This document shows positions 76-34,434 of a stretch of 64,000 nt of DNA, in pieces (position 1 is the stretch's first letter; each line of letters opens with the position of its first letter). The position numbers and the translations under genes are program-made. Under the pieces are notes generated by a model. It had not been told where the DNA came from. It did no database searches and worked only from the letters and a program-made list of their open reading frames with translations. Origin of the DNA: Longimicrobiales bacterium (GTDB lineage Bacteria; Gemmatimonadota; Gemmatimonadetes; Longimicrobiales; Gaopeijiaceae); contig OX639991.1 in NCBI GenBank assembly GCA_951828585.1, forward strand, positions 2,016,576 to 2,080,575, given 5' to 3'.

Positions 76-1230
76 GTGCGAGAAGGCTTGCAGATGCGAA
101 GACGTGACTTCATCAGGGCGGGAACGCTCGGGGGGCTCGCGGCGGGTGGGGGGATTGGGGGACTGGGGGACCCCTTGGCTGCAATTGTCGGCGGCCCCGG
201 GCGCGGCGTTGCCGAGGGCCGTGTACGCCTCAGCTCCAACGAGAACCCGCTCGGAATCTCGTCGGCGGCGAAAGACGCGCTGGTCGAGGCCATCGTTCTC
301 GCCAACCGCTACCCTGCGGACCAGCACCGGGCCCTCGTGGCCAAACTGGCCGCGGCGCACGAGGTGGGCGAGGATCAGGTGGTGCTGGGAACGGGATCGG
401 CGGAGGTGCTGCAGATGGCCGTCCAGGCGTACGCCGCCCCGCGTGCGAAGCTGGTTATGGCGGAACCGACGTACGAGGCCGTGACCAACTACCAGCGCAC
501 GGAGGCGTACGAACTGGTGAGGGTTCCGCTGACTCCCGGGCACGAGCACGATCTGGATCGCATGCGCGAGGCCGCCGAAAGCTCGGGCCACCCAGCGCTG
601 GTCTACCTCTGCAACCCCAACAACCCGACCGCGACCATCACGTCCAGCGCGGCGATCGACGCCTGGATCGCCGACGCGCCGGATCACGTCTTCTTTCTCT
701 CGGACGAGGCGTACATCGAATACGTCGAAGACGAACGCATGTGGAGTTCGCTCCCGTGGATCGCGAAGAAGCGTAACGTCCTCGTGGTCAGGACGTTTTC
801 GAAGATCTACGGTCTGGCGGGACTTCGGATCGGGTACGGGATCGCCCACCCCGACACGGCGGCGCGCCTCTCCGACTTCGCATCGCGGAACAACATCAAC
901 CAGCTCGCGATCGCCGCGGCCGGCGCGTCCTTCCGCGACGAGGGCCTGATGGAGAAGAGCCGCGTGGTCAACCGCGAGTCGCGGCAGATGGTCGAGGCCA
1001 CGCTGGACGAACTGGGGTTGGAACGCATGCCCACTCAGGCGAACTTTCTCATGCACCGAATCAACGGAGACCTCGCCACCTACCGTGGCCGCATGGCCGA
1101 GGCGGGTTTTCTTGTCGGGCGGGACTTCCCGCCCATGCTGGACTGGAACCGGCTCTCCTTCGGTCTCCCGGAGGACATGGGCCGATTTTGTGACACACTG
1201 CGCGATTTTCGCGGAAAGGGATGGACCTAG
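76..1230 (+). CDS. Tat-exported histidinol-phosphate-aminotransferase-like PLP enzyme
   Basis: Fold-type I pyridoxal-phosphate aminotransferase of the HisC/class I-II family, 384 aa. The N-terminus has a twin-arginine motif (RRRDF) followed by a Gly/Ala-rich stretch, so export by the Tat system to the periplasm is likely. The substrate loop CNPNNPT lies at residues 179-185, the cofactor Asp and Tyr (SDEAY) at 210-213, and the Schiff-base Lys243 sits in TFSKIYGLAGLR. The GTG start at 76 has AGGAGG at 63-68; an ATG at 94 just before the twin arginines is an alternative. The gene stops 3 nt before a TonB-dependent receptor, so the two are probably co-transcribed. HisC proper is cytosolic, so this is more likely a paralogue acting on an extracellular amino compound than the histidine-biosynthesis enzyme. 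The substrate is unknown. Confidence 0.85.
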   Translation: MREGLQMRRRDFIRAGTLGGLAAGGGIGGLGDPLAAIVGGPGRGVAEGRVRLSSNENPLGISSAAKDALVEAIVLANRYPADQHRALVAKLAAAHEVGEDQVVLGTGSAEVLQMAVQAYAAPRAKLVMAEPTYEAVTNYQRTEAYELVRVPLTPGHEHDLDRMREAAESSGHPALVYLCNPNNPTATITSSAAIDAWIADAPDHVFFLSDEAYIEYVEDERMWSSLPWIAKKRNVLVVRTFSKIYGLAGLRIGYGIAHPDTAARLSDFASRNNINQLAIAAAGASFRDEGLMEKSRVVNRESRQMVEATLDELGLERMPTQANFLMHRINGDLATYRGRMAEAGFLVGRDFPPMLDWNRLSFGLPEDMGRFCDTLRDFRGKGWT

Positions 1231-1233
1231 CCA

Positions 1234-4113
1234 ATGAAATCGAAATTGATTCTGATCGGAGCGCTGTTCACGTTCGCCCTGCCCGGTCTCGCTGCGGCTC
1301 AGGGTACGCTGCGGGGCACCATCACGAATGCTGCCACGGGGGCGGCCCTGGAAGGGGCCTCGGTCTCGGTGGCGGACCTCAACATGGGCGCCAACACTAT
1401 GGCTGGCGGCGCGTACGAAATCACCGGCATTCCGGCCGGAACCCACGAGGTGGAGGTCCGTCTGATCGGCTTCCAGCTCGCGCGCCGGGAAGTCACCATC
1501 ACCGAGGGCGGCACGGCCCGGCTGGACGTCGCGCTGACCGAGATGGCGATCGAACTTGGCGGACTGGTCGCCGTGGGCAGCCGTGCGCAGCCCAGAACGG
1601 TGACCGAATCACCCGTGCCGGTCGACGTCATCCGGACCCGGGAACTCGTCAACCAGGGCGATTCCGACCTGGTGAACCTGATCCGCAACGTGGTTCCGTC
1701 GTGGAACGCCAATATCCAGCCGATCTCCGACGCGGCCACCTTCGCGCGGCCCGCCAACCTGCGCGGTCTCGCGCCCGACCACACACTGGTGCTCGTCAAC
1801 GGAAAGCGACGTCATCGCACCGCGGTCATCACCTGGTACGGCAACGGACTCGCCGACGGCTCCCAGGGCCCCGATATCGCGGTCATCCCCGGGTTGGCTC
1901 TCGAGCAGGCCGAGGTTCTCCGCGACGGCGCGTCCGCCCAGTACGGCTCCGACGCGATCGCCGGCGTCATGAACTTCGTGCTGAAGAACGACCGCTCCGG
2001 CGGCGCGATCGAGTTCAAGTCGGGCGGGTATCTCATGGGCGAGACCAGTGAACGCTTCGAAGAGGGCAGTGTGCCGGGAGACGGCGAGATGTACACCGTG
2101 TCGGGCAACGTGGGTCTGCCGCTCGGATCGACCGGCTTCCTGAACCTGACCGGCGAGTACGGCAATGCCTACCCCACGGACCGCAGCACGCAGCGCAACG
2201 ACGCGCTCGCACTGATCGCCGCCGGCAACTCGAGCGTCCGGGCGCCCGCGCAGATCTGGGGCTCGCCCCAGGTCTCGAACGAGATCAAGCTGTGGGCGAA
2301 TATGGGCTACGTATTCGACAACATGTCGTTCTACTCCCACGGCAACTACGTGAGCAAACAGGTCGAGGGCGGGTTCTACTTCCGTAATCCGGGCACCCGC
2401 AGCGGCGTCTTCGGAACGAGGAACGCCGACGGCGACCGGATTCTCCTGGTGGGCGACATGGTGGACGCGGCGGACGGCGTGCTGGACGGATCGGCGGGCT
2501 GTCCCGAGGTTCGGGTTGACGACAATGGCGTGGTGCTCGACCAGGCGGCGTTTGCCCACATCATGAACGATCCCAACTGCTTTAACTTCCGGAAGCTCTT
2601 CCCCGGGGGGTTCACCCCGCAGTTCGGCGCGAACGTGCGCGACGCGTCCGCGGTGGCGGGGCTGAAGGGCACCAGCGGCGACCTGAACTGGGACGCGAGC
2701 GCGAGCTGGGGCAAGTCCAACATGGACTTCTACATGTACAACACGGTCAACGCTTCGCTCGGACCGGACCAGCCGTGCGCCGATGGCAGCAGGGACATTT
2801 CCTTCGTCGTGCCTGATCAGGCCTGCACCCCGTGGTTCGGTCCCGGGATCTACGACCAGCAGGATATGAACCTGAACCTGGACCTCTCCTACGCCGTCGA
2901 CGACAGAATCAACATGGCGGGCGGTGCCGAGTTCCGTAACGAGCGCTTCGAGATCGTCGAGGGCACCAAGGAGTCGTGGACGGAGGGCCAGCTTGCCAGC
3001 CAGGGCTTCCAGCCGGGCTCCAACGGCTTCACCGGGTTCGGCCCCCTGACGAAGGGCAATTGGAACCGGTACAACTTCGCGGCCTACGCGGATCTCGAGA
3101 TCAATGACCGGGACGGGAACTGGACCGTGAGCTTCGCCCAGCGCATCGAGCATTTCTCCGACTTCGGCATGACCGCGAACGGGAAGTTCGCCGGGCGTGT
3201 GGGCCTTTCCGACCAGTTCGCCCTGCGGGCCAGCGTCCAGTCCGGCTTCCGTGCGCCCACGCCCGGTCAGCAGAACGCCTTCAACATCTCGACGATCTAC
3301 GATCCCGCGATCATGGATCTGACGAACAACGGCACGATTCCCTCCACGAATCCACTGGCGGAGCATTTCGGCGGGCAGCCGCTCAAGCCCGAAAAGTCCG
3401 TCAATCTCGCGATGGGGGGCGTGTACGATAGTGGCCCGTTCAATCTCTCGATGGATTTCTTCCAGATCAGGGTGTCGGACCGGCTGACGACCAGCGCGGA
3501 CAGGCAGCTCTCTCCGGAAGAGATCCAGCAATTGGAGGACGACGGCGTTATTCGGGAGGGTGGGGTGCTCGCTCGCTTCCGGTTCTTCATCAACGACTTC
3601 GCGACCACGACCACGGGCATCGACCTGGTGGGCGCTTACGATATTGAGGGAGCGGGCGGCTCCACCACGACCATCAGCAGTGCGTGGAACTGGACGACGA
3701 CGGAGGTGACGCAATTCAACGAGACCACCCTCAACACGCTCCGCATCAGGATCCTTGAGCAAGGGCTTCCGAACGTGCGCGGCAACCTCGCGCTCAACCA
3801 TGTCTTCCCGGCCGGCACCCGCTTCCTGGTGCGCGGCAGCTACTGGGGCGGCTACTTCGACGGTGAGCAGCCGTACTACGAGTCGAATCCCGACAGTACG
3901 ATCGATTACCCGGCCCGCATGCTCGTCGACATGGAGGCGGCCCACACCTTCGCGGATCGCTGGACGCTCACGGTCGGTGGAACGAACGTGCTGAACACCT
4001 ACCCTGAAGAGTATCCGGGCGCGGCGGCCGGCGTCGGCAACCGCTTCGGCCAGTTTACGCCGTTCGGCTTCAACGGCGCCTTCTACTATTCGCGGATCGG
4101 GTACTCCTGGTAA
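1234..4113 (+). CDS. TonB-dependent receptor with N-terminal carboxypeptidase-regulatory domain
   Basis: Outer-membrane active-transport receptor, 959 aa. A Sec signal peptide ends near residue 23 (LAAAQ). Residues about 25-105 form a CarboxypepD_reg-like beta-sandwich. The plug domain (about 115-240) carries the typical VLVNGKRRH, VLRDGASAQYGSDAIAG and NFVLKN signatures. The rest is a 22-strand barrel, ending in an aromatic residue (SRIGYSW) as expected for BAM recognition. It starts 3 nt after the exported aminotransferase gene, which suggests that the two act on the same imported substrate. The ligand cannot be read from the sequence. A strong GC-rich hairpin at 4142-4178 follows it. Confidence 0.92.
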   Translation: MKSKLILIGALFTFALPGLAAAQGTLRGTITNAATGAALEGASVSVADLNMGANTMAGGAYEITGIPAGTHEVEVRLIGFQLARREVTITEGGTARLDVALTEMAIELGGLVAVGSRAQPRTVTESPVPVDVIRTRELVNQGDSDLVNLIRNVVPSWNANIQPISDAATFARPANLRGLAPDHTLVLVNGKRRHRTAVITWYGNGLADGSQGPDIAVIPGLALEQAEVLRDGASAQYGSDAIAGVMNFVLKNDRSGGAIEFKSGGYLMGETSERFEEGSVPGDGEMYTVSGNVGLPLGSTGFLNLTGEYGNAYPTDRSTQRNDALALIAAGNSSVRAPAQIWGSPQVSNEIKLWANMGYVFDNMSFYSHGNYVSKQVEGGFYFRNPGTRSGVFGTRNADGDRILLVGDMVDAADGVLDGSAGCPEVRVDDNGVVLDQAAFAHIMNDPNCFNFRKLFPGGFTPQFGANVRDASAVAGLKGTSGDLNWDASASWGKSNMDFYMYNTVNASLGPDQPCADGSRDISFVVPDQACTPWFGPGIYDQQDMNLNLDLSYAVDDRINMAGGAEFRNERFEIVEGTKESWTEGQLASQGFQPGSNGFTGFGPLTKGNWNRYNFAAYADLEINDRDGNWTVSFAQRIEHFSDFGMTANGKFAGRVGLSDQFALRASVQSGFRAPTPGQQNAFNISTIYDPAIMDLTNNGTIPSTNPLAEHFGGQPLKPEKSVNLAMGGVYDSGPFNLSMDFFQIRVSDRLTTSADRQLSPEEIQQLEDDGVIREGGVLARFRFFINDFATTTTGIDLVGAYDIEGAGGSTTTISSAWNWTTTEVTQFNETTLNTLRIRILEQGLPNVRGNLALNHVFPAGTRFLVRGSYWGGYFDGEQPYYESNPDSTIDYPARMLVDMEAAHTFADRWTLTVGGTNVLNTYPEEYPGAAAGVGNRFGQFTPFGFNGAFYYSRIGYSW

Positions 4114-4141: not shown

Positions 4142-4178
4142 CCGGCCCCGGGTCGGCCTCGTGCCGGTTCGGGGCCGG
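4142..4178 (+). terminator. Rho-independent-like terminator hairpin after the TonB receptor
   Basis: A 16-bp GC-rich inverted repeat (4142-4157 paired with 4163-4178, three G-U pairs, 5-nt loop) is followed by TGGTTTATGTTG, a weak U-rich tail. It lies between the receptor stop at 4113 and herA at 4201 and separates the two transcription units. The U-tract is poor, so termination may be partial. Confidence 0.6.
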
Positions 4179-4200
4179 TGGTTTATGTTGAGAACCCGTC

Positions 4201-5901
4201 ATGAGCGAACACCCCACCTCACCTCCCGTCGGCCGGGTCATCGGCACGGACCCAGCCACCCCGCTGGAGTTCTGGGTGGCGGTGGGCGACGACTGCTTTC
4301 TGCAGCTCGACGACGTGGTGGTGGTCGAGCGGTCCCTCCCCGGGCGCGCCGAGCCGATCCGCATCTACGGCATGGTCTCCGACCTGCGCGTCCGGCACGA
4401 AGGCGCGCGCTTCGACAGCGATGTCTTCCTGATTGAGGACGGGGTGCTCCCGGCACAGGTCACCGAGGCCGCCAAGGTGCTGGCCACCCGCTTCGAGCCG
4501 GAGGTCTTCGTGCCGCCGGTGCCGGGCGAGATCGTCCGCAAGGCCGTCGGCGAAGCCCGCGACCAGGCCCTCTTCTTCGACGGCATGGAGCGCCGCATCC
4601 CGGCGGGCCTCTCTCGCGACGGCGAGGTCGTCCACGCCAACCTGGAATTCATGGACGGCACGCGGGGCGCGCACGTGAACATCAGCGGGGTCTCGGGCGT
4701 GGCCACCAAGACCAGCTACGCCGTCTTCCTGCTCCACTCGCTCTTCACGTCGGGGGAACTGGGTGCGGGCGCCCACAACACCAAGGCGCTGATCTTCAAT
4801 GTGAAGGGCGAGGACCTCCTCTTCCTCGACCGGCCCAACCGCCACCTCGACGGGGAACAGATGGCGCGCTATGCGACACTGGGTCTCCCGGCCACGCCCT
4901 TCGCGAGCGTCGAGCTGTGGGCGCCGCCCCGCCGGGGGGACCCCTCCGCCGCCCCCCGCACCGGCAGCCGCGCCGACGGCGTGACATCGTTCTTCTGGAC
5001 GCTGGCCGAGTTCTGCCGGGACGAACTGCTGCCCTTCCTGTTCGCGGACGCCGGGGACGAACGGCAGCAGTACACGATCGTCGTGCACAACGTCACGGCG
5101 CGGCTCCGGCGCGAAGCCAAACCCCTCGGCGATGGCGGCGTGCGGATCGGCGGAATCACCTGCCGCACATTCGAGCAGCTGATCGACGTCATCAACGACC
5201 GGCTGGAGGACGAGGGCGACCGGGGCGAATGGGCGGGCCGCTCCATCGGCACCGGCACCATCAACGCTTTCGTGCGCCGCCTCTACGCCTCGCGCCGCGA
5301 CGCCGAGCACCTCGTCCGCGGCGACGTCCCCAACCCGGGGAAGCACCGCATCGGCATGCAGGGGCAGGTCACGGTGGTGGACATCGCGAAGCTGTCGCGC
5401 CGGGCGCAGCGGTTCGTGGTTGGGGTGGTGCTTCGCAAGACCTTCCAGGAGAAGGAGGAGACGGGTTCGCGCGAGCCGCTCCTCTTCGTCGTGCTCGACG
5501 AACTCAACAAGTACGCGCCGCGCGAGGGACACAGCCCGATCAAGGAGATCCTGCTGGACATGGCCGAACGGGGGCGTTCGCTGGGCGTGATCCTGATCGG
5601 GGCGCAGCAGACGGCCAGCGAGGTGGAACGCCGCGTGATCGCCAACTCGTCGCTCCGGGTGGCGGGCCGCCTGGACAGTGCCGAGGCGGGGCGGCCCGAA
5701 TACGCATTCCTCCCGACCGCGCACCGCCAGCGCGCCACCATTCTCAAGCCCGGCACGATGATTCTGTCGCAGCCGGAACTGCCGGTCCCTCTCGTGCTGG
5801 AGTTTCCCTTTCCGGCGTGGGCCACGCGGCCGGATGAGGTGGGGGATGAGCCGGGCGACGCGGAAGACACACGCGATCCATTTGAAGGGCTGGAGGAGTG
5901 A
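4201..5901 (+). CDS. herA: HerA-family hexameric DNA translocase ATPase (bacterial type, DUF87)
   Basis: FtsK/HerA-superfamily ATPase of 566 aa. Known HerA proteins form a hexamer that pumps DNA for end resection together with NurA. The N-terminal ~100 residues look like the HAS-barrel. The P-loop region GVSGVATKTS (Lys170) is a degenerate Walker A with Thr in place of the Gly before Lys. Walker B is FVVLDELNKYAP (Asp433, Glu434), followed by the sensor stretch LIGAQQ. The next genes are sbcD, sbcC and nurA on the same strand, the same order as the archaeal herA-mre11-rad50-nurA cluster, and this supports a repair role. Bacterial HerA also occurs in anti-phage modules with Sir2 or DUF4297, but no such partner is present. 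The ATG at 4201 has no clear Shine-Dalgarno. Confidence 0.85.
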   Translation: MSEHPTSPPVGRVIGTDPATPLEFWVAVGDDCFLQLDDVVVVERSLPGRAEPIRIYGMVSDLRVRHEGARFDSDVFLIEDGVLPAQVTEAAKVLATRFEPEVFVPPVPGEIVRKAVGEARDQALFFDGMERRIPAGLSRDGEVVHANLEFMDGTRGAHVNISGVSGVATKTSYAVFLLHSLFTSGELGAGAHNTKALIFNVKGEDLLFLDRPNRHLDGEQMARYATLGLPATPFASVELWAPPRRGDPSAAPRTGSRADGVTSFFWTLAEFCRDELLPFLFADAGDERQQYTIVVHNVTARLRREAKPLGDGGVRIGGITCRTFEQLIDVINDRLEDEGDRGEWAGRSIGTGTINAFVRRLYASRRDAEHLVRGDVPNPGKHRIGMQGQVTVVDIAKLSRRAQRFVVGVVLRKTFQEKEETGSREPLLFVVLDELNKYAPREGHSPIKEILLDMAERGRSLGVILIGAQQTASEVERRVIANSSLRVAGRLDSAEAGRPEYAFLPTAHRQRATILKPGTMILSQPELPVPLVLEFPFPAWATRPDEVGDEPGDAEDTRDPFEGLEE

Positions 5902-5944
5902 GACACCCGGATCGCCACACTCAACGATCCGATATGTAATGTTA

Positions 5945-5972
5945 AGTTTACAACATGTAAACTCTAGTTTAC
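5945..5972 (+). promoter_or_regulatory. AT-rich palindrome upstream of sbcD
   Basis: In the 127-nt gap between herA and sbcD lies a perfect palindrome with 8-nt arms, AGTTTACA (5945-5952) and TGTAAACT (5956-5963), spaced by 3 nt. A third half-site AGTTTAC follows at 5966-5972. The AT-rich patch stands out in GC-rich surroundings. It could be a repressor operator or part of an internal promoter; TGTAAT at 5935-5940 is a possible -10. No known regulator can be assigned. Confidence 0.45.
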
Positions 5973-6028
5973 CTATTCTCAAACGGACGCCCCCGGGGGC
6001 TACCCTCGCAACCCCCCACCCCCCCATC

Positions 6029-7186
6029 GTGAAGATCCTCCACACCGCCGACTGGCACGTCGGCAGGACCCTGCGTGGCCACAGCCGTGCCGACGAGCAC
6101 AGCGCAGTCCTCGACGAAATCGTCCAGATCGCCCAGGACCAAGCGGTCGACCTCGTCCTCGTCGCCGGCGACCAGTTCGACCGCGCCGTCCCATCCCCCG
6201 AGTCCGAGCGCATCGTCTACGACGCGCTGCTGCGCCTGGCCCGCACCGGCGCGCAGGTCGTGGTCATCGCCGGCAATCACGACAACCCCCGCCGCCTGAC
6301 CGCGGTCCGCCCCCTGCTCAAGCTGGCCGACATTACCGCGGCCTCCTCCGTCGCGGCACCCGGCAAGGGCGGAGTCGTCCGCCTCGCCACCCGATCCGGC
6401 GAGACCGCCTGCATCGCCCTCTTCCCCTTCCAGTCGAAGCGCGGAATCGTCAAGGCCGAAGCCCTCATGACCGGCGATCCCGACGACCACCAGAAGGAGT
6501 ACGCCGACCGTTGCCGCGCGATTGCGGGCGCCCTGTGCGCCGGCTTCGCGGCCGACACCGTCAACCTGGTCGTGGCCCACCTGACCGTGGTGGGCGCCAT
6601 GGCCGGGGGCGGCGAACGCACGGCCCACATCTTCGACTACTACGTCCCCGCCGACATCTTCCCCGTGGAAGCCCACTACGTCGCTCTCGGGCACATCCAC
6701 CGACCCCAGCGGATCCCCGGACGCTGTCCCATCCGGTACGCCGGGTCGCCCTTCGCCCTCGACTTCGGGGAGACCCACGGCGAGCACAGCGTCACCCTCA
6801 TCGAGGCGGAGGCGGGAAAGCCGGCGCACGTCGAGCAGATCCCCCTGAAATCGGGGCGGGCGCTCACCACCATTCGCGGCGGCAGCCTTCAACTGGAGCA
6901 ACTGGCCGGCACCACCGGCGACGATTTCCTGCGCGTGTACGTCGAGGAGGCGCCCACACCCGGTCTGGCGGAGCGGGTGCGGGACATGTTCCCCCACGCG
7001 GTGGACGTGATCGTCGCCCCCCCGGGAAAGACCGCCACCAAGCGAAAGGCGATCGACCCGGGCGAGCTGCGCGACCCGCGCGCCCAGTTCCAGCGCTACC
7101 TCAGGGAGCGCGGCATCGAGGGCGACGAGCTGTCGAAGCTCTTCGCCGAATTGCTGGAGGAGGAGTATGCGTCCCCTTCGGCTTGA
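6029..7186 (+). CDS. sbcD: SbcD/Mre11-type DNA exonuclease subunit
   Basis: Calcineurin-like metallophosphoesterase of 385 aa, the nuclease subunit of the SbcCD (Mre11-Rad50) complex that processes DNA ends and hairpins with Mn2+. The metal-binding motifs appear in order: DWHVG near the start, GDQFD, GNHDN, VVAHLT and LGHIHRPQ. The reading frame is open back to 5834, but conserved sequence begins at V/M-KILHTADWHVG, so the GTG at 6029 is chosen although no Shine-Dalgarno is visible. The stop overlaps the sbcC start by 20 nt, indicating translational coupling. It is the second gene of the herA-sbcD-sbcC-nurA operon. Confidence 0.92.
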   Translation: MKILHTADWHVGRTLRGHSRADEHSAVLDEIVQIAQDQAVDLVLVAGDQFDRAVPSPESERIVYDALLRLARTGAQVVVIAGNHDNPRRLTAVRPLLKLADITAASSVAAPGKGGVVRLATRSGETACIALFPFQSKRGIVKAEALMTGDPDDHQKEYADRCRAIAGALCAGFAADTVNLVVAHLTVVGAMAGGGERTAHIFDYYVPADIFPVEAHYVALGHIHRPQRIPGRCPIRYAGSPFALDFGETHGEHSVTLIEAEAGKPAHVEQIPLKSGRALTTIRGGSLQLEQLAGTTGDDFLRVYVEEAPTPGLAERVRDMFPHAVDVIVAPPGKTATKRKAIDPGELRDPRAQFQRYLRERGIEGDELSKLFAELLEEEYASPSA

Positions 7187-9947
7187 GCTGGAAGGCTTCA
7201 CCTCCTACCGCGAGCCCACGGTCGTGGACTTCGCCGACACCGACCTGCTCGTCTTCACCGGCGCAACCGGATCGGGAAAGTCCAGCCTCATCGACGCGAT
7301 CATCTTCGCGCTCTACGGATCGGTCCCCCGCTACGACCACGCCAGCCTGATCGCGCCCGTCATCAGCCAGGGCAAGGTCCGCGCCCGGGTGCGGCTCGAC
7401 TTCGAGGCGCGGGACAAACGCTACACCGCGGTCCGCGTCGTGCAGCGCACCGCGACCGGCGCCGCCACCCGCGAAGCCCGCCTCGAGGAACGGGCCAACG
7501 GCAAGTCCGTCAAGACGTTGGCCGCCACCGAATCGGACCTGTCGGCGTGCGTCCAGAACGACGTGATCGGCCTCGGCCTCGACCACTTCACGAAGTGCGT
7601 GGTCCTTCCGCAGGGCGAATTCGCCGCCTTTCTGCGCGCCAAACCCGCCGAGCGCAGGCAGTTGCTGGAACGGCTGCTCGGACTGGGGCTGTACGAGCGG
7701 TTGCGCAGGGCGGCCAACCTGCGGTGGAAGGTCGAGGAGGACTGGGCCGACAAGCTGCAGTGGCGGCTGGACTCGGTGCTGGCACACGCGACCCCCGAAG
7801 CCGTCCGCGCGGCCGAGGCCCGGGTCGCGGTGCTGGACCGGCTCCGGCGACGCGTCACCGAGGTCGCAACGCAACTGGCCAAACTCGACTCGAAGTTCCA
7901 GGCCGCCGCCGATCGATGGACGCAGGCCGCCGCGCAGCTGGATCGTCTGGCCAGCGTCAAGGTTCCGGATGGAACGGCCCAACTGGCGACCCGGTACCAG
8001 GCGGCCGAGCAGGAGGTCAAGCGGTCCGCCGAAGCCTGGACCACTGCCGCCCGCCGCTTGCGCGACGCCCGGTCGGCGCGGGAGGACCTGCCCGAGAAGG
8101 CGGCCATCGACAAGGTGGTGGAGAAGCGCGACCAACTCGCGCGCCGGGAAACCGAGATAGCCCGGACCAGGCGTGACCTCAATGTGGCGACGGAGATCGT
8201 CGCGGAGGCCACCGAACACGAGAAGACCATCCGCGACGAGTTCGCACAGGCCAGACAGCGCCTGAGGGAACTTCCCGAACAGTCGGAGCTGGACGCCATT
8301 GCCGGGAAGCACGAGCAACTCCGCCAGCTGGAGGGCGACCTGGAGCGCACACGGCGCGAACTCGCCGAGGCCGACCATGCCTACACCGCGGCCGCCCAGC
8401 GAAAAACCGACGCGGACCGTGAACTGGAAGCCGCGACGCAGGCATTCGAGACCCTGCGCGCCGCCCACAGCGCGGCCGACATGGCCCATCATCTTCACGA
8501 GGGCGGGCCCTGCCCTGTCTGTCTCCAGACCGTCGCCCGGCTACCCGACCACACTCCCCCCGCCGACCTCGACGCGGCCCGCAAGCGAACACACGCGGCC
8601 CGGGAATCCTCCACGCAAACCACCGCTGAACGCGACCGCCGCGCCTCGGCCCGGACCGCCCGCACCACCACCCTGGAACTGCAGACCCAATCCGCACAGT
8701 CACTTCGGCAGTCCCTGGCGGGGTCCCCCGCCCAAACCGAAATCTCCACCCTGATGGCCGAGGTGGCCAAGACGGAGACCCGGGCGGCCATTCTCGAAAA
8801 GCGCCTGGACGACGCGGCCTCCCAGCGGACCAAACGGGAACGGGACGCCAACCACGCCGTCTCGACGCTGAAACAGCAGGAGCGCTTTGCCGCGAGCCTG
8901 CGCGACGACCTGGCCACGGCCCCGTCCCTTGAAGAGACGACCACACTGCTGGACAGGATACGCTCGGCCGACGAGGCGGTGCGCAAGGCCCGACGCGACG
9001 AGGAGTCCTCCCGGCAGGCGCACGATACCGCCGCGGAGGCGCTGCAACGCTGGAAGTCCCGTATCGGCGGCGCCTGGAACGAGTACCACACCGCCCGCGA
9101 TTCGGTCGCCGAAATGCGCCCCCCGGACATCGCCGAGGGCGACCTGGCCGACTCCTGGAAAACCCTGTCGCAGTGGGCCGAAAACACCCACGCGGCCACG
9201 AAGGCCGTCGTTGCCCGGGCCGACTCCGATCGCACCGCCGCCTCCCGCGAAAAAACCCGCCTCGACGCCCAGGTCCGGGAACGCTGCGCAACCGACGGCC
9301 TCACCCTCGACCCGGACGAAGACCCCGCACAGAAAACCTCGGAAGCCCTGGGCGCCGCCCGTGGGAAACTCGACCATCTCCGCGCCTCCGCCGATGAGCG
9401 AAAACGCATTCAGACCGAAGCCGACGAAACCCGCGCCCGATCCCTCATCGCCAAGGACCTGGGCAGCCACCTCGGCGCGAAGAAGTTCGGCGCGTGGATG
9501 CAGAACCAGATCCTCACCTGGCTCATCGAGGGCGCCACGGCGCGGCTGCGGGAGCTGTCCAGCGGCCAGTATTCGCTCGATCTGTCCGACCGCAACGAGT
9601 TCCTGGTGATCGATCACCGCAACGCCGACGAACCGCGGCTGGCAAAGACCCTGTCCGGCGGCGAGACGTTCCTCGCCTCGCTGGCCCTCGCGCTGTCGCT
9701 GGCCCAACAGGTCGCGAACCTGGCGGCACACGGCAGCGCGAAGATCGAGGCGCTCTTCCTCGACGAGGGCTTCGGCACGCTCGATTCGGAGACGCTCGAT
9801 GTCGTGGCCGCCACCATAGAACAGCTGGGCACCGAGCGCATGGTGGGGCTCGTAACGCACGTTCCCGAGCTGGCAGGCCGCATCCCGGTGCAGTACCGCG
9901 TGACCAAGGTGGGCAACTCCTCCTCGGTCGAGCGTGTGGAGACGTGA
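7167..9947 (+). CDS. sbcC: SbcC/Rad50-type SMC-like ATPase
   Basis: ATPase and tether subunit of the Mre11-Rad50-type nuclease, 926 aa, slightly shorter than the roughly 1050 aa of E. coli SbcC. Walker A TGATGSGKSS (Lys38) is at the N-terminus. Two long coiled coils flank the zinc-hook motif CPVC (residues 449-452), through which two molecules dimerise. The C-terminal lobe has the ABC signature LSGGETFLAS and Walker B ALFLDEGFGTLD. The start ATG has GAGGAGGAG just upstream and lies inside the end of sbcD. The coiled-coil DNA is rich in C on this strand but keeps the frame without breaks. Confidence 0.95.
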   Translation: MRPLRLELEGFTSYREPTVVDFADTDLLVFTGATGSGKSSLIDAIIFALYGSVPRYDHASLIAPVISQGKVRARVRLDFEARDKRYTAVRVVQRTATGAATREARLEERANGKSVKTLAATESDLSACVQNDVIGLGLDHFTKCVVLPQGEFAAFLRAKPAERRQLLERLLGLGLYERLRRAANLRWKVEEDWADKLQWRLDSVLAHATPEAVRAAEARVAVLDRLRRRVTEVATQLAKLDSKFQAAADRWTQAAAQLDRLASVKVPDGTAQLATRYQAAEQEVKRSAEAWTTAARRLRDARSAREDLPEKAAIDKVVEKRDQLARRETEIARTRRDLNVATEIVAEATEHEKTIRDEFAQARQRLRELPEQSELDAIAGKHEQLRQLEGDLERTRRELAEADHAYTAAAQRKTDADRELEAATQAFETLRAAHSAADMAHHLHEGGPCPVCLQTVARLPDHTPPADLDAARKRTHAARESSTQTTAERDRRASARTARTTTLELQTQSAQSLRQSLAGSPAQTEISTLMAEVAKTETRAAILEKRLDDAASQRTKRERDANHAVSTLKQQERFAASLRDDLATAPSLEETTTLLDRIRSADEAVRKARRDEESSRQAHDTAAEALQRWKSRIGGAWNEYHTARDSVAEMRPPDIAEGDLADSWKTLSQWAENTHAATKAVVARADSDRTAASREKTRLDAQVRERCATDGLTLDPDEDPAQKTSEALGAARGKLDHLRASADERKRIQTEADETRARSLIAKDLGSHLGAKKFGAWMQNQILTWLIEGATARLRELSSGQYSLDLSDRNEFLVIDHRNADEPRLAKTLSGGETFLASLALALSLAQQVANLAAHGSAKIEALFLDEGFGTLDSETLDVVAATIEQLGTERMVGLVTHVPELAGRIPVQYRVTKVGNSSSVERVET

Positions 9948-9948
9948 A

Positions 9949-10959
9949 GTGGGCGAAGACGCCGGCGGCGGGGCGGGTAACGCGGGCGAAGCCATGAATC
10001 GCGTCGAATCGCTGGCCATCGAAGGCTGGTCCCCCGAATTCGGCTCCCCCGTCGAGACGGAAAGGGACGATGTCCCCGCCGCGCAGGTGGACGCCGGCGC
10101 GGAGCTTCCGCCGGAAGAGTGGCGTCCCCTGGCCGCGGCAGCCGACGCGCCGGCACCGGCCCGCGTGTACTTCGTCGACGGTGTGCGACGGATCGAGGCG
10201 AGGGTGTGGATGAGCCACGGGGGCGAGCCGAGTCTCGGGATCTGCGCGTCCTACGGAGCCGGCGTGGTCCGGTGCGGCCGGAGGGCGGAGATCGTGTCGG
10301 CCAGCGTGCGGCGCGGCTTCTTCGGCAAGGCAGGCGTCCCCGCTCTCGTGACTCGGGCGGGCACTTTCGCGGCGTGCCCCGTCGCCGCCGACGACATCCA
10401 GCAGTTGGTGAACGGCCTGCAGGAACGCATGGGACAGCTCGAGATCGAGGTGGCCGAGACCGCGCTGCCTTCCGCGTCGCGCCCGTCTCGCGGCGATGCG
10501 CTGATGGTGGTGGACGGTCCCCTGCGCGGAAGTCAGCGCATTGCCGGAGCCACCGGCTACGTGAAGAGCCACAGGGTCCAGTACCTGTCGGGCGGGCCGC
10601 GCGCAACCGTTGCCCGGCTCGGCCCGGGCCAGCGCACCCCCGTCTTTCTCATCCAGACCACCTGGACCCGCTACTCCTGGTACCTGCGCCTCACCGAGGC
10701 CGAAGGTCACCCCTGGGCCGGCATTGTGCGGTGCGAAGCGTGGCACGACACGGGACTGGACCAGGTCAAGAGAATCGCGAACGCGACGGCTGCCGTCCTA
10801 CCGCGCTTCGCATCGGAACCACACAAGGACGACCGCGCACCTCAGAACCTCTACCCGATCGCGGGCCTGGAACGCGAGCTGAGACGGCGACTGGGCGATA
10901 CCGGCGTGGTCTATCGTGCGCTCAGACGCGCAGCCGACGACTACCGTCCCCCGACCTGA
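9949..10959 (+). CDS. nurA: NurA-domain 5'-3' nuclease, partner of HerA
   Basis: NurA-type nuclease (RNase H-like fold), about 336 aa. Conserved acidic motifs are YFVDGVRR (Asp77) and VVDGPLRG (Asp189), followed by GYVKSHRVQYL, the hallmark stretch after the second motif. In archaea NurA is inserted in the HerA hexamer and degrades DNA ends opened by Mre11-Rad50. The chosen GTG follows the sbcC stop by 1 nt and has GGAG at 9938-9941; an ATG at 9994 is an alternative start. Gene order and strand place it as the last gene of the herA operon. Sequence similarity is judged from the motifs only, so the family call is firm but not certain. Confidence 0.8.
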   Translation: MGEDAGGGAGNAGEAMNRVESLAIEGWSPEFGSPVETERDDVPAAQVDAGAELPPEEWRPLAAAADAPAPARVYFVDGVRRIEARVWMSHGGEPSLGICASYGAGVVRCGRRAEIVSASVRRGFFGKAGVPALVTRAGTFAACPVAADDIQQLVNGLQERMGQLEIEVAETALPSASRPSRGDALMVVDGPLRGSQRIAGATGYVKSHRVQYLSGGPRATVARLGPGQRTPVFLIQTTWTRYSWYLRLTEAEGHPWAGIVRCEAWHDTGLDQVKRIANATAAVLPRFASEPHKDDRAPQNLYPIAGLERELRRRLGDTGVVYRALRRAADDYRPPT

Positions 10960-34416: not shown

Positions 34417-34434
34417 TGTAAAGAGGAGTTTACA
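34417..34434 (+). promoter_or_regulatory. Palindrome around the ribosome site of the third propeller gene
   Basis: TGTAAA (34417-34422) and TTTACA (34429-34434) form a perfect 6-nt dyad with the ribosome-binding sequence GAGGAG as the 6-nt loop, 2 nt before the ATG at 34437. Folding would hide the ribosome site, or a protein could bind it. Confidence 0.4.

Follow-up and report, generated by a model that had tools for sequence, protein, structure and literature searches.

A bacterial-type herA-sbcD-sbcC-nurA operon that probably serves as an exchangeable, one-per-genome cassette in a genus of Longimicrobiales

In Deinococcus radiodurans, the HerA protein translocates duplex DNA into the nuclease NurA, which digests the 5' tail; K175 and T176 of this HerA bind nucleotide and metal, and bacterial and archaeal NurA-HerA proteins share less than 20% identity (PDB 7f6d, 7wrw, 7wrx; PMC9960219). 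A bacterial nurA-hepA-sbcD-sbcC cluster was noted earlier in Oceanithermus profundus (PMC5448004). Archaea cluster the same four functions as herA-mre11-rad50-nurA, and joint action of the four proteins has been proposed (PMC2288612; Constantinesco 2004), while a role of this archaeal complex in resection has recently been doubted and the destruction of foreign DNA suggested (PMC12977600).

The DNA analysed here, a stretch of 64,000 nucleotides from a Longimicrobiales bacterium that we refer to as the window, carries four end-processing genes on the forward strand in the order herA-sbcD-sbcC-nurA (4201-10959), just as a sequence-only reading of the same DNA had placed them. Upstream, on the same strand, lie a hisC-like aminotransferase gene and a gene for a TonB-dependent receptor (76-4113), followed by a hairpin of 16 pairs (4142-4178) located 3' of the TonB gene and a short leader that reaches the herA start (hairpin and leader together, 4142-4200). 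The herA gene (4201-5901) encodes a bacterial-type HerA hexameric translocase. The open reading frame of sbcD, which encodes a Mre11-like nuclease, opens at 5834, but homology starts only at the GTG codon at 6029; the gene thus likely spans 6029-7186 and is separated from herA by a gap of 127 nt, without overlap. It overlaps sbcC (7167-9947), the gene for a Rad50-like ATPase of 926 amino acids, by the 20 nt that had been claimed. The nurA gene (9949-10959) encodes a bacterial, RNase-H-like NurA nuclease; the claim that it follows sbcC by 1 nt holds for the GTG start at 9949 and fails for the more likely ATG at 9994, where the homology of NurA relatives starts and in which case the gap would measure 46 nt. 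Between herA and sbcD, in a region of 68% G+C, lies an AT-rich perfect palindrome (GTTTACA-ACA-TGTAAAC, 5946-5962) of which shuffled sequences yielded no instance. G007, G013 and perhaps G011 have looser forms at the equivalent position, and G010, G017 and G022 lack them; two further sites with two mismatches are found in the window at 34428 and 56317. This palindrome may be an operator.

As a single sequence, the window's HerA matches that of D. radiodurans (7f6d) with E=1.4e-154, and as a profile built with its relatives it finds the solved D. radiodurans protein at 1.9e-184. Its Walker-A motif is a variant, GVSGVATKT, whose residues G, S, G, A, T, K and T do not vary in the alignment of HerA proteins of the window's type and recur in the D. 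radiodurans protein. The residues K170 and T171 of this motif, the Walker-B residues D433 and E434, and D205 are likewise invariant and correspond to K175/T176, D487/E488 and D220 of D. radiodurans HerA. This full-length similarity, together with the equivalent residues, assigns the protein to the bacterial HerA family of the D. radiodurans type. On its own, it has no matches in Pfam, the Pfam HerA family included, and archaeal HerA models remain far under their cut-offs (NF040937: E=0.018, 13.5 bits against a cut-off of 800). A third, more distant type of HerA, with 32% identity to the window's protein and with nurA nearby, is encoded in two other genomes (G035, locus L038; G041, locus L039), and a similar C-terminal match is found in many genomes of the class.

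NurA matches its D. radiodurans counterpart (7f6d) with E=7.1e-21 as a single sequence, and its family profile reaches D. radiodurans NurA (7f6d_H) at 1.6e-45; the archaeal NurA 2ygk attains only E=0.91 in the same profile search. The top Foldseek match of the predicted structure (pLDDT 87) is chain G of 7f6d (3e-18, TM 0.67), and the structure search also finds TdpAB, a phosphorothioation-linked system, as a weaker structural neighbour. Invariant residues are D77-G78, E165, D189-G190 and K206; sequence, fold and the conserved acidic site (D77, E165, D189) identify the protein as a bacterial NurA. A comparison of the 9949-10959 product with the Pfam NurA family (PF09376), proposed in the sequence-only reading, gave a divided answer: the protein scores 18.0 bits, under the gathering score of 21 (E=0.0022), but D. 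radiodurans NurA is the top match of both profile and fold. Thirteen of 19 members of the NurA family match PF09376 at E<=0.1, the best of them at 1.4e-6.

SbcD scores 184.8 bits against TIGR00619 (cut-off 77.65), which identifies it as a canonical SbcD, and the five phosphoesterase motifs DxH, GDxxD, GNHD, H and GHxH can be read from its sequence. SbcC matches TIGR00618 at 4e-72, though under that model's cut-off of 478.5 bits; it is recognized as SbcC by its two ATPase halves and its zinc hook (Walker A, CPVC, LSGGE signature, Walker B). The best-scoring models for both proteins are bacterial. Furthermore, the order herA-sbcD-sbcC-nurA recurs, mostly in Actinobacteria, in most of the readable loci among the best 80 matches, that is, those where the DNA reaches far enough; by the record titles as deposited, these taxa include Gemmatimonadota, Acidimicrobiia, Nitriliruptorales and Micromonosporaceae. 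Given this recurrence, the order is not due to chance. The genes inserted between the cassette genes in some Actinobacteria (L064, L067, L076, L113, L126) are unrelated genes and reveal no conserved fifth component. The window's genes had been read as an archaeal-type complex, a label that these data contradict, since HerA and NurA belong to the bacterial D. radiodurans family, bacterial models give the best scores for SbcD and SbcC, and Actinobacteria commonly have this gene order. An archaeal operon gained by a bacterium, a scenario that draws on the archaeal clustering of the same four functions (PMC2288612), is hardly credible when HerA and NurA match solved bacterial proteins and the matches to archaeal profiles and structures lack significance or are much poorer. 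Judged by family membership, the four genes are a predicted DNA-end-processing operon of a bacterial, Deinococcus-type lineage and of an already-known kind.

Both AddAB genes are present in the window's genome, about 110 kb from the cassette. Of the two roles suggested earlier, an addition to AddAB thus agrees with the gene content, and a replacement of AddAB is ruled out, as nothing has been replaced. Among 101 genomes of the family, a canonical SbcD (over the cut-off) occurs in 36/36 that carry this HerA and in 2/65 that lack it (Fisher 2e-25), a co-occurrence that leads us to treat SbcCD and HerA-NurA as a single functional unit; these data would hence link the two as a unit in bacteria. 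As 65 of the 101 genomes lack this HerA, and 63 of those 65 the canonical SbcD as well, the function appears to be dispensable outside the genus. Two additional SbcD-like/SbcC-like pairs are encoded in the window's genome (G000:C1, near 1307594 and 1348636; L054 and L055); both SbcD-like proteins fall under the SbcD cut-off, and the second pair resembles YhaO-YhaN.

Within the genus, represented by 23 genomes, one per species, the cassette exists in two versions. Version A (herA-sbcD-sbcC-nurA, as in the window) is present in 8 of these genomes and version B (nurA-herA-sbcD-sbcC) in 15, and the two share only about 42% identity in HerA, 33% in SbcD and 35% in NurA. The survey of gene order in relatives that the sequence-only reading had proposed therefore has a mixed outcome: the order recurs among the best 80 matches, but in most congeners nurA comes first, as part of a different version and not of a scrambled copy. 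Each congener possesses one NurA (G020 in addition a broken fragment) and one HerA version. Most of the genomes are metagenome bins; the two in the genus that consist of single contigs, the window's genome (A) and G001 (B), contain one version each. In some version-B genomes, 1-10 kb separate herA from sbcD, and several have a contig that breaks off ahead of sbcC. The multi-kb inserts at this position in G003, G009 and G015 (L248, L249, L250) carry genes for Fic and AAA (AAA_14) proteins and for an ATPase of AAA type that looks TOPRIM-like (OLD-like), and part of the 3' end of herA is duplicated in G003 and G015.

A species tree resting on two marker genes, rpoB and hisC, requires at least seven changes of version, all of them forced by well-supported branches, and version A as a single clade is rejected (p-AU 7e-38). 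The cassette trees, in turn, reject the species topology (p-AU 3e-77 for version A and 7e-6 for version B); the B tree retains some vertical stretches (G002/G014/G016 and G003/G015/G019). That the unit has been transferred horizontally, as the sequence-only reading had allowed, is borne out by these version changes and by the discordant cassette trees. At four-fold sites, version-B HerA differs by 0.33 as compared with 0.505 for rpoB (correlation 0.37), whereas for version A the values are 0.43 and 0.50 (correlation 0.84). Version B is hence less diverged than the species that carry it, while version A follows them more closely; from these site differences, it looks as if version A is the older one and version B spread later. 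One B cassette was also detected in a neighbouring genus (G268), a tentative finding on a contig of 4.35 kb from a bin whose contamination amounts to 6%. A genome from a further genus of this family carries a mosaic (G030, L037, 595-7803) that combines a B-type nurA (62% to B) with a following A-type herA (74%), sbcD (63%) and sbcC, so that the unit is not inviolable; this cluster lies near a block of 17 tRNA genes.

The cassettes occupy a small number of shared sites. Locus I, with the aminotransferase and TonB genes on its left, holds version A in G000 (the window's genome), G007, G010, G017 and G013, the last placed by its right flank because its contig begins at herA, and version B in G001, G004, G006 and G020. 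The left flank (76-4113) is common to version-A, version-B and empty-site genomes. In near sisters at this locus, DNA identity is about 84-93% until the cassette is reached, inside which the sequences are unrelated or only very distantly related; the flanks of G010 (A) and G006 (B) match at 89% on both sides, and those of G017 (A) and G020 (B) at 88.7% and 93.3%. Locus II, between glyS/oxidoreductase and NifU-like/dihydroorotase genes, holds version B in eight genomes and version A, inverted, in G021 and G022; G021 and G012 (B) have flanks of 78% and 93.6% identity around cassettes in opposite orientation. A third site holds version B in G003, G015 and G019, and the version-A cassette of G011 lies elsewhere. 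A common site for G011 and G003 was considered and dropped, as it was based on 64% matches only. Locus I is empty in locus-II genomes, with 212 bp between the flanks in G012 as compared with 6.7 kb in G017. Exactly one of the three sites is filled in each of 22 genomes, for which the chance would be 5e-8 if the sites were independent, a value that ignores relatedness and serves as a rough guide. No tRNA gene was found in the regions of the genus that were fetched, and tRNA-guided integration was accordingly rejected for them.

Several version-B cassettes bear a scar of version A. The stretch corresponding to hairpin and leader (4142-4200) is retained ahead of nurA-B in version-B genomes of locus I, and in G006 and G020 the sequence before nurA-B equals the A-type leader, the start codon and the first herA codons. 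The G006 (B) leader agrees with the first 48 nt of herA-A of G010 (A) at 47/48 positions, and G020 agrees with G000 at 56/63; G001 and G004 carry more decayed versions. In all four B genomes, the scar forms an open reading frame of 22-23 codons whose TGA overlaps the ATG of nurA-B. This herA-A remnant indicates that at locus I version A came first and that version B took over its start region. The scar comparison revealed no version-B scar in version-A genomes and no A scar in empty sites, the rows for G003 (B), which had a wrong start coordinate, being set aside. One might attribute the pattern to differential loss of two ancestral paralogous cassettes, in line with the use of three loci of which one is filled per genome; we regard this as very unlikely, because A and B sit at the same site between homologous flanks, even in inverted orientation, because version B carries the start of herA-A, and because it is less diverged than its hosts.

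We consider it probable that the four genes form a bacterial DNA-end-processing operon that acts beside AddAB and that, in this genus, constitutes an exchangeable cassette present once per genome. The protein families, their order, the single copy in the genomes searched, the same-site exchange, the scar and the discordant trees are direct observations; for the biochemistry of the cassette, D. radiodurans is taken as the guide. SbcCD would open blocked ends, binding and trimming blocked or hairpin ones; the HerA hexamer would then pump duplex DNA into the NurA dimer, and NurA would degrade or resect it, beside AddAB. Versions A and B alternate at the same chromosomal sites, one per genome, through horizontal transfer; at locus I, recombination in the flanks probably moved the cassette, and the herA-A remnant, which now forms the leader of B, records that the change ran from A to B.

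What drives this exchange can be viewed in several ways. The cassette may be a housekeeping repair operon whose versions are equal in function, with neutral exchange among related, perhaps co-living, species, and with a single copy because one set suffices. Such neutrality sits well with one copy in every congener, with metabolic neighbours and with the vertical stretches in the B tree, but less well with the family genomes that lack both this HerA and canonical SbcD; moreover, at least seven version changes among 23 species seem many if four genes are swapped neutrally, and we incline against it. We are similarly hesitant about an anti-phage or anti-plasmid system proper, in which SbcCD and HerA-NurA would destroy foreign linear or replicating DNA and phage pressure would drive the turnover of versions. 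The gains, losses, inversions and exchanges are like those of defence systems, TdpAB is among the structural neighbours of NurA, HerA pairs with other nucleases (SIR2, DUF4297) in defence, according to work cited in PMC12977600, and a phage protein inhibits SbcCD (PMC12624138). On the other hand, no congener lacks the cassette, a constancy that most defence systems do not show, and its neighbours at locus I are metabolic genes and not a defence island. Searches with PADLOC for known anti-phage HerA systems gave weak or generic matches (HerA and mad8, best 1.6e-8), and no SIR2 or DUF4297 partner is present among the four proteins. A search of IMG/VR confirmed no virus-borne homologues, the query being the window's NurA as a single sequence, which reaches close relatives only.

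Returning to the exchangeable end-processing cassette, the repeated replacement of entire sets would be compatible with pressure from phage inhibitors, given the phage protein that inhibits SbcCD. Exchange might be favoured where one version is inhibited by phages or other elements, or through an additional activity of the cassette against foreign DNA, which it would destroy; this strikes us as just short of an even call. The more far-reaching formulation, namely that phage inhibitors exert balancing selection on mutually exclusive, interchangeable versions, that these are swapped at fixed sites where the newcomer takes over promoter and start codon of the version it displaces, and that a repair operon thus evolves in the manner of an immunity allele, is put forward tentatively, and we would sooner doubt it than adopt it. 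Near-sister species in which flanks of 89% identity enclose either A or B nevertheless offer a natural experiment on the reasons for exchanging a repair machine as a whole, and on whether the versions differ in the restriction of phages or plasmids.

Among the described systems, NurA-HerA of D. radiodurans (PMC9960219) is homologous over most of its length, and the catalytic residues and P-loop variant of its HerA are kept here; there, however, the two genes form a nurA-herA operon, whereas here sbcD and sbcC separate herA from nurA, in a genome that also encodes AddAB. The O. profundus cluster (PMC5448004) likewise brings all four functions together in a bacterium, but in the order of version B, not that of the window, and exchange of versions was not reported for it. 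The archaeal cluster (PMC2288612; Constantinesco 2004) also groups these functions, yet archaeal HerA, NurA, Mre11 and Rad50 represent different families or far subfamilies. In SIR2-HerA, HerA-DUF4297 and TdpAB, a HerA-like ring works with a partner nuclease as well; these have other nuclease partners and no SbcCD. In xenologous replacement, distant homologues displace operons in situ, and the cassette resembles this in that a gene unit is replaced in place by a diverged version, but differs through its recurrence, the empty sites, the inverted occupancy and the one copy per genome. What is unusual here is that each sampled species has exactly one cassette, in one of two highly divergent versions, and that these have several times taken each other's place in situ.
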